NCBI RefSeq assembly: GCF_000513855.1
Contig: NZ_KI911318.1
Coordinates: 204,087-268,086 of the forward strand
Source: Desulfurococcus amylolyticus Z-533
GTDB lineage: Archaea; Thermoproteota; Thermoprotei_A; Sulfolobales; Desulfurococcaceae
Direction of reading: 5' to 3'
DNA length: 64,000 nucleotides
Part shown: piece by piece, positions 46,804-56,447 of the stretch
Position numbering within the stretch: position 1 is the stretch's first letter
Layout: each line of letters opens with the position of its first letter
The notes under the pieces: model-generated
The model's database searches: none
Seen by the model: the letters and a program-made list of their open reading frames with translations, nothing else
Told to the model about the DNA's origin: nothing
Program-made: the position numbers and the translations under genes

Positions 46804-47247
46804 TCACCTTATGAAGTCGCTTACATCATAGTCTTCGAACTGCTTCATTTGCTTGAACATTTCTTCATCGCTGCTCTGCTTAATCTTTCTCTCCAATGCC
46901 TTGGCACATCTACCATCTGGTAGTAGTGAATTCAACCTGCACGATGCATATTGGCACTCACCGCTGATACAATCTCCGCCTATTAATCTACATTGTGCAA
47001 CGCGGATCATTTTTCCCCTTACAGGCTTGGAGGTTATCATTAAGGCGTTCTTGTTGCAGGTGAAAAATGGGCATAGAGGATTACATTTATCACCTATAGG
47101 CTGCGGCTCCAGCCTCTTCTCCTCGAGGTGTTGGAAACGGGTTGATGCATAACTACCATGATGCCCTGTTTTCTCATACCTGGCTCCTCTACCCTCGTAG
47201 TGGCGCCGGTCTTCATTCCTCCATCGCTCACTACTAGTGTTATTCAA
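46804..47247 (-). CDS. Cysteine-rich protein, metal or Fe-S binding (unknown)
   Basis: 147 aa: a charged, disordered N-terminal 45 residues, then eight or nine cysteines in CNPLCPFFTC, AQCRLIGGDCISGECQYASC and DGRC, then a helical acidic tail ending DYDVSDFIR. The pattern suggests one or two zinc or Fe-S sites. Not recognised. Own transcript, with 212 bp upstream. Confidence 0.7.
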   Translation of the reverse strand: MNNTSSERWRNEDRRHYEGRGARYEKTGHHGSYASTRFQHLEEKRLEPQPIGDKCNPLCPFFTCNKNALMITSKPVRGKMIRVAQCRLIGGDCISGECQYASCRLNSLLPDGRCAKALERKIKQSSDEEMFKQMKQFEDYDVSDFIR

Positions 47248-47459: not shown

Positions 47460-48007
47460 CTATGGTTTCCACCAATCGAGTAGGTGGTACACTATGTTAT
47501 TCCCAGTATAGATTGCTATGATGAGTTTCTTTCTTACTGAGTGGAGTAATCTACCCATCCTTACTAATTCCACTGGATCTATGATCTCGTCGGCCCTGAA
47601 AACTTGAAGCCCGAAGGGCGCGTGATCTATGCCGGGTCCATGCCTATATACTAAGTAGTCGCAGCCAAATTTCAACCCTCTTCTCGGTATCAAGCCATGG
47701 CTACGTAGGTCGTTATACACTGTGTATAATTCCTCGAACCTCGGTATCTTTCCCACAGCTATACTATATAAATCCCCTGCATTTAGTGAGGAGTCGCCTT
47801 GGAAAACCCTTATTCTGCCCCTCTTGAGAAGATAGAGAGCTTCTATCAGGGAGAGCTCTAGAGGGGCACTTATGCTTCTATCCTTCGGCTTGGATACGCC
47901 GAGAAAGGAACCATAATATCCATCCCAGTATATCTTAGAAGCGCATTTGGGATCGGGAATTATAACCCTGTTATGTAGTAAATATCCCTGGCACTCCTCT
48001 ACCCCAT
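47460..48007 (-). CDS. endA: tRNA-splicing endonuclease EndA, start codon out of frame
   Basis: Catalytic subunit that cuts introns at bulge-helix-bulge sites. C-terminal domain: FEELYTVYNDLRSHG, GLKFGCDYLVYRHGPGIDHAPFGLQVF and RLLHSVRKKLIIAI, with the Tyr-His-Lys triad. The N-terminal domain is open in the same frame up to 48005 (VIIPDPKCASKIYWDGYYG ... APLELSLIEALYLLKRG). No ATG, GTG or TTG lies in that frame before residue MGKIPR at 47756, which is far too late. An ATG directly after the upstream TAA (48005-48007) reads ATG-GGG-TAG. One more G in the GGGG run would give ATG-GGG-GTA-GAG and a 182-aa protein of normal size. Sequencing error, non-standard start and real frameshift are all possible. 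Confidence 0.85.
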
Positions 48008-48712
48008 TTACCTCGTTACTGTTCTCACTAGTGCTAGATAACGTATTTCCTCACCGAGGTTCTTGAGTAGGTCGCTGAGCTCTTCAATATATTCTATTAA
48101 ATCCTTTAAAACCATTAATCCAGCTACAGAGCTAGAGTAGGTCTCATATACTTTGAATATAGACTCCCTAAATATGTTGTCCACTTCATCCTCTAGTTTC
48201 AACACCTCGTCAACATGCTCCATGGATTTTCTTGGATGCGTTGACAGCTTTTGTAGCGAATCCTGTATTAGGTTAACCTGTTGTCTAACCTTCCCTATCA
48301 TTGTTTGAAGCGTGGTAATCAGGTCGTTGTTTATACTGATATTGTTTTTAGATGCTATGAGTATCCTGTACGCTACGCTGTCCACGTGTTGTATGAATCT
48401 ATCTATGGTTCTAACCATCTCTATATAGCTCCTCGAATACATCATTACCTCGCTATTCTTAACCAGGTACTCCATCAACATTATTTTCATCTCCTCTCCA
48501 CGATGCTTAATAGACCTTACCCTCTCATACATCTTCTCGATGTCAGGGCTTGGAGAATACTGGTTCATTAGGGCCGTTAACACTGAGACCTGATCACTCA
48601 CAATAGACATCATGTTACCTAGGTACTCTATAGCTGTTAACTCAGCAAGCGAACCTCTCTCAGGGCTCTCGCTCACCACTAACCCCCTTTCATCCCGGTC
48701 AAGATAAATCAT
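48008..48712 (-). CDS. DUF47 / PhoU-like protein
   Basis: 234-aa all-helical protein of the PhoU-like DUF47 family, which often partners phosphate permeases. Features: IKHRGEEMKIMLMEYL, VDSVAYRILIASKNNISINNDLITTL, and near the end VLKLEDEVDNIFRESIF and LKDLIEYIEELSDLLKNLGEEIRYLALVR, the E-x-D-x3-D type metal segment of PhoU proteins. It directly precedes endA on the same strand. Confidence 0.75.
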   Translation of the reverse strand: MIYLDRDERGLVVSESPERGSLAELTAIEYLGNMMSIVSDQVSVLTALMNQYSPSPDIEKMYERVRSIKHRGEEMKIMLMEYLVKNSEVMMYSRSYIEMVRTIDRFIQHVDSVAYRILIASKNNISINNDLITTLQTMIGKVRQQVNLIQDSLQKLSTHPRKSMEHVDEVLKLEDEVDNIFRESIFKVYETYSSSVAGLMVLKDLIEYIEELSDLLKNLGEEIRYLALVRTVTR

Positions 48713-56337: not shown

Positions 56338-56447
56338 CGCCGGGGGCGGGATTTGAACCCGCGCGCCCCGTGAAGGGGCAGTGGGTCTCCCACGTGTAGC
56401 CGGAAAGGTCTCGAGCCCACCCCCTTAGACCGCTCGGGCACCCCGGC
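56338..56447 (-). tRNA. tRNA-Ser (CGA) with a 23-nt intron
   Basis: Acceptor GCCGGGG/CCCCGGC with discriminator G, as usual for archaeal Ser. Long variable arm with stem GCCCC/GGGGC. Anticodon stem GTGGG/CCCAC with loop CTCGAG+A, anticodon CGA. The insertion ACCTTTCCGGCTACACGTGGGAG (23 nt) lies after position 37. T arm GCGGG-TTCAAAT-CCCGC. Confidence 0.93.

Follow-up and report, generated by a model that had tools for sequence, protein, structure and literature searches.

The catalytic subunit of the tRNA-splicing endonuclease (EndA) of Desulfurococcus amylolyticus Z-533 is very probably made as a 194-aa protein by Shine-Dalgarno-guided internal initiation at an ACG codon (48044-48042) that lies inside the upstream gene, phoU. 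Judging by its conservation, the ACG start of endA appears to be an old and unusual start mode, used in this archaeon and in 32 related species, and not a sequencing error. Coordinates refer to the window, by which we mean the whole 64,000-nucleotide stretch of DNA that was analysed (Table 1), and the argument draws on comparisons of sequence.

The frame assigned to endA spans both EndA domains (Pfam PF02778 and PF01974). Its match to TIGR00324 (EndA, tRNA-intron lyase) scores 94.4 bits, above the curated cut-off of 59.6, its PF01974 score is 88.6 against a cut-off of 27, and a phmmer comparison of the window's EndA with EndA 3p1z gives 1e-48. In the alignment to 3p1z the catalytic Tyr, His and Lys are kept (VYR, GPGIDH and HSVRKK); 3ajv has Ala at the aligned position of the catalytic His. 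The original prediction held that a second intact endA would remove the need for this copy, and no second catalytic endA was found elsewhere in the 1.307-Mb single-contig genome. A second PF01974 match (G000:C1:1273119-1273355, 45 bits) lacks the GPG..H motif, which marks it as the non-catalytic type. Together, a non-catalytic paralogue and a catalytic EndA fit the expectation for crenarchaeal heterotetramers. With the catalytic subunit of these heterotetrameric endonucleases (PDB 3p1z, 3ajv, 2cv8, 2zyz) the window's protein has both EndA domains in common, as well as the GPGIDHAPF His motif, the HSVRKK Lys motif and the presence of a second, non-catalytic paralogue in the genome. It differs from the EndA of the other families examined in that those mostly start at ATG, GTG or TTG. 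In a different family, f9, one genome has an EndA match (G203:C1:1257271-1257813) with an internal in-frame TAG.

As originally predicted, ATG, GTG and TTG are missing from the endA frame before the middle of the protein: the first such codon, the GTG of 'MGKIPR', is number 98 of 196 when counting from 0, and no other of the window's 64 long ORFs has its first canonical start past codon 50. The frame had been described as open from 48005 to 47460. Its end is correct (TAG at 47462-47460, minus strand), but its upstream limit is 48050, 15 codons further into phoU, where the TGA at 48053-48051 closes it. Throughout the window's family phoU adjoins endA; in the window the two genes overlap, with endA in the -1 frame relative to phoU. 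Three PhoU paralogues occur in the genome, and the sequence GGTGA-N6-ACG is found only in the one that adjoins endA. Directly downstream of endA, a 147-aa protein with a Cys cluster and without a Pfam match is encoded at 46804-47247 (minus strand). The four tRNA genes ascribed to the window are confirmed, three by ARAGORN and Rfam and one, at 56338-56447, by a whole-genome search.

Table 1 Features of the phoU-endA locus (window coordinates) and of the corresponding loci in family f7
Feature	Position	Strand	Evidence
phoU, PhoU_div (DUF47) family gene, 234 aa	48712-48008	-	Pfam PF01865, E=5e-13
phoU stop codon, TAA	48010-48008	-	
Putative endA CDS, ACG to TAG, 194 aa, catalytic (alpha-type) tRNA-splicing endonuclease subunit	48044-47460	-	TIGR00324, PF02778, PF01974
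GGTGA in the last phoU codons, predicted Shine-Dalgarno sequence	48055-48051	-	Exact spacing in 33 of 37 family loci, 0 changes on tree, complementary to own 16S tail
TGA within GGTGA, in-frame stop bounding the endA frame upstream	48053-48051	-	
ACG, putative endA start, 6 nt past GGTGA, within PhoU codons ATA-CGT	48044-48042	-	In the endA frame in 33 of 33 element-bearing loci
Cys codon TGC where the N-terminal extension meets the core	47993-47991	-	Invariant in family
ATG-GGG-TAG in the PhoU frame, not conserved, not a start	48007-47999	-	Absent in two congeneric genomes
GGTG-N7-ATA/ATC inside phoU of f7 loci L060-L062, L074-L079, L081, L083-L088			

We searched 40 genomes of the same family and obtained 36 relatives, which with the window's own locus make 37 loci; these are related by descent, and counts over them are not independent. 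A canonical start before the core is absent in 25 of the 37 and present only as a scattered one in 8 more. GGTGA-N6-ACG stands in the last phoU codons of 33 of the 37 loci, in 11 genera, each time with the ACG in the endA frame. Eight of these 33 also have, closer to the core, a scattered ATG, GTG or TTG that could be the start there. On the tree, the bases of GGTGA and ACG show 0 changes; the third bases of the two acidic phoU codons between them show 6 and 8, the first base of the PhoU Leu/Ile/Val codon 8, and the Arg codon 10 at its third base. Of the surveyed loci, 38 are genuinely without a canonical start, and every one of them carries either GGTG-N7-ACG or GGTG-N7-ATA/ATC (L052, flagged by our script, has an ATG and was left out of this set). 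The 'rare start' that the original prediction had listed among its alternatives thus gains support from a conserved element.

We considered that GGTGA and ACG might be kept merely by the PhoU protein. This is ruled out by codon choice, by the free third positions, by a control Arg column and by loss of the element in species with their own start. With expected codon frequencies derived from the phoU and endA genes of these genomes, the invariant PhoU Gly is GGT in 33/33 loci (family usage 29%), the Leu/Ile/Val codon at the element ends in A in 33/33, and the invariant Arg is CGN in 33/33 (usage 21%), its third base being free. Another invariant PhoU Arg, 42 columns upstream, served as a control and is AGR in 29/33. 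The C-terminal motif is absent from the two other PhoU paralogues of the genome, so they provide no codon control.

The exact element is missing in four family loci, all of which have their own start. L009 has an ATG, its PhoU Arg codon is AGA and the exact element is gone; L019 and L031 each have a TTG, and their PhoU Arg is replaced by Leu. These three loci have lost the -1 phase of endA relative to phoU. The fourth, L034, has an ATG available and reads GGGGA-N6-ACG, with GGGGA for GGTGA.

Several observations indicate where the endA frame is entered. The TGA of GGTGA is a stop in the endA frame in 33/33 loci, so that initiation upstream of GGTGA cannot reach endA in any of them. Over 536 codons per frame between the ACG and an invariant Cys codon, the 33 loci have 0 stops in the endA frame versus 93 in the third. 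Codons of phoU that end in T and stand before AA, AG or GA codons, which would create stops in the endA frame, number 0 of 75 in the overlap versus 682 of 2584 upstream of it. The Cys codon follows the phoU stop at distances of 5, 8, 14, 17, 20 and 23 nt, all of one phase. The open frame, the avoidance of stops and the constant phase together argue that translation in the endA frame already takes place where the overlap begins, and the sole invariant candidate triplet there is ACG. The N-terminus, which had been expected after the PhoU stop, is placed inside phoU by this conservation. The Cys codon is TGC or TGT in every family locus listed, and the residue, directly before the EndA core, is invariant though the flanking N-terminal extension varies.

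GGTGA pairs perfectly with the 3' tail of the 16S rRNA, GGAUCACCUCC, as read from the same genome. The distance from GGTG to ACG is the one most often seen at ATG starts of the window (GGTG-N7-ATG), a statistic from few genes (5 of 17 ATG sites with GGTG have spacing 7). The locus thus combines the sequence features looked for in a Shine-Dalgarno-led non-canonical start: complementarity to its own 16S, normal spacing, a near-cognate codon, and no in-frame ATG, GTG or TTG before the core. No special unpairing is predicted for the Shine-Dalgarno region, and alignment folding gave no conserved RNA hairpin around the start.

A second lineage shows a related arrangement. In family f7, of the same order, GGTG-N7 is followed inside phoU by ATA in 12 and by ATC in 4 of 20 loci, in the +1 frame of phoU; the remaining 4 have an ATG and no element. 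The PhoU codons of the 16 element-bearing loci are as uniform as the element demands (Val GTG 16/16; Tyr/Asn/Asp codon ending in T 16/16; Ile/Leu codon ending in C 16/16), and the endA frame has 0 stops in 278 codons. An AUA/AUC start for EndA is therefore likely conserved in f7. On the tree the ACG group and the ATA/ATC group are separate, with deeper branches weakly supported. In f7 one PhoU substitution, Ile or Leu to Val (ATC or CTC to GTC), would suffice for an AUG, and 0/16 species have made it. It is conceivable, if rather doubtful, that in both lineages, the first with ACG and the second with AUA/AUC, selection maintains the near-cognate endA start overlapping phoU for its weakness, which would control splicing capacity through dosage or regulation. 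In three loci of family f4 (L044-L046) the EndA ATG appears to lie inside the end of a PhoU-like gene; the overlap itself may therefore predate the non-canonical starts.

The original prediction put forward the loss of a single G from the homopolymer that follows the phoU stop, since five G would give an in-frame ATG-GGG-GTA in the window. The sequence on which this turned, TAA-ATG-GGG-TAG, is present (48010-47999), but it sits in the PhoU frame. Comparison with the closest species, which had been named as a check, shows two congeners that lack both a canonical start and the ATG-GGG-TAG; 22 further family loci, and with them most of the family, likewise have no canonical start. The combination of ATG and G-run is not a common feature of these loci. 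A sequencing or assembly error, which would leave the invariant GGTGA-N6-ACG unexplained, has a negligible probability. Frameshifting at ATGGGG had been offered as well; relatives lack this ATG, and the conserved element is found some 35 nt upstream of it. More generally, a programmed -1 frameshift near the phoU end could yield a PhoU-EndA fusion, with the Shine-Dalgarno-like GGTGA as stimulator. Some bacterial frameshifts are stimulated by such sequences, the endA frame stays open through the overlap, and the phoU/endA phase is kept through indels in multiples of three. However, 0/33 loci have a slippery XXXYYYZ heptamer in the overlap when it is read in the phoU frame, f7 would have to shift the other way (+1), EndA is produced without fusion in those relatives that start at ATG or TTG, and the invariant ACG at normal Shine-Dalgarno spacing would go unexplained. 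The same spacing with another frame and another codon in f7 favours initiation and disfavours frameshifting, which we regard as improbable.

Initiation might instead take place at some other non-canonical codon past the ACG, either by stop-start coupling at the phoU stop or near the conserved Cys. The phoU stop always has the same phase to endA, and GTGA, TTGA or ATGA is found in a few species, as such coupling would have it. The codon overlapping the phoU stop is, however, GTA, CTA, ATA, TTA, GTG, CTG, TTG or ATG without preference, stop avoidance sets in upstream of these sites, and no further invariant triplet has a Shine-Dalgarno sequence at the proper distance, making a later start a poor prospect. 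Finally, a single C-to-U change in the mRNA would turn ACG into AUG, and ACG starts in plant organelles are edited to AUG in this way. The ATA/ATC codons at the comparable place in f7 speak against editing, as C-to-U cannot yield AUG from them, and we know of no C-to-U mRNA editing of such kind in archaea; we consider it very unlikely.

Initiation at the ACG would proceed as follows. On the phoU-endA transcript, the anti-Shine-Dalgarno tail of the small ribosomal subunit would pair with GGTGA (48055-48051), placing the initiator tRNA on the ACG (48044-48042), which is in frame -1 relative to phoU. The ACG would presumably pair with the initiator tRNA and be read as Met, and the product would be the 194-aa EndA, with a short variable extension ahead of the conserved core. 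ACG may be used because the overlapped PhoU has an invariant Arg there, which makes AUG unavailable: the Arg codons (CGN, AGR) leave the overlapping endA codon only NCG or NAG, never AUG. ACG, one mismatch from AUG, would then be kept by the constant CGN for Arg and the A-ending codon before it. Initiation may well be inefficient, and a low EndA output tolerated or useful. We also considered feedback of EndA on its own start through splicing of the initiator tRNA; it is unsupported in the window's genome, where the initiator tRNA gene (L101) has no intron.

ACG is no start codon in NCBI translation table 11, and our search of the literature, which covered it in part, found no report of ACG starts in archaea. 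A parallel is found in the non-canonical starts of bacterial genes such as E. coli infC, which starts at AUU. Both genes would pair a conserved near-cognate start, probably weak, with a Shine-Dalgarno sequence. Unlike infC, endA has its codon outside table 11 and inside another gene, and no autoregulatory loop is known for it. As a start codon, ACG is used in eukaryotic and viral genes, for example in the capsid protein of adeno-associated virus (PMC10112878). Those starts are reached by eukaryotic ribosomes, whereas endA has a Shine-Dalgarno sequence at fixed spacing inside an operon.

Gene finders for bacteria and archaea refuse ACG, and throughout the family endA is therefore likely to be overlooked, annotated too short or labelled a pseudogene. 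If our reading is correct, archaeal ribosomes would stably use ACG, in 11 genera, and AUA/AUC, in another lineage, to start a key gene. The species that have ATG or TTG instead would then offer a clean natural system in which to study archaeal tolerance of near-cognate starts.
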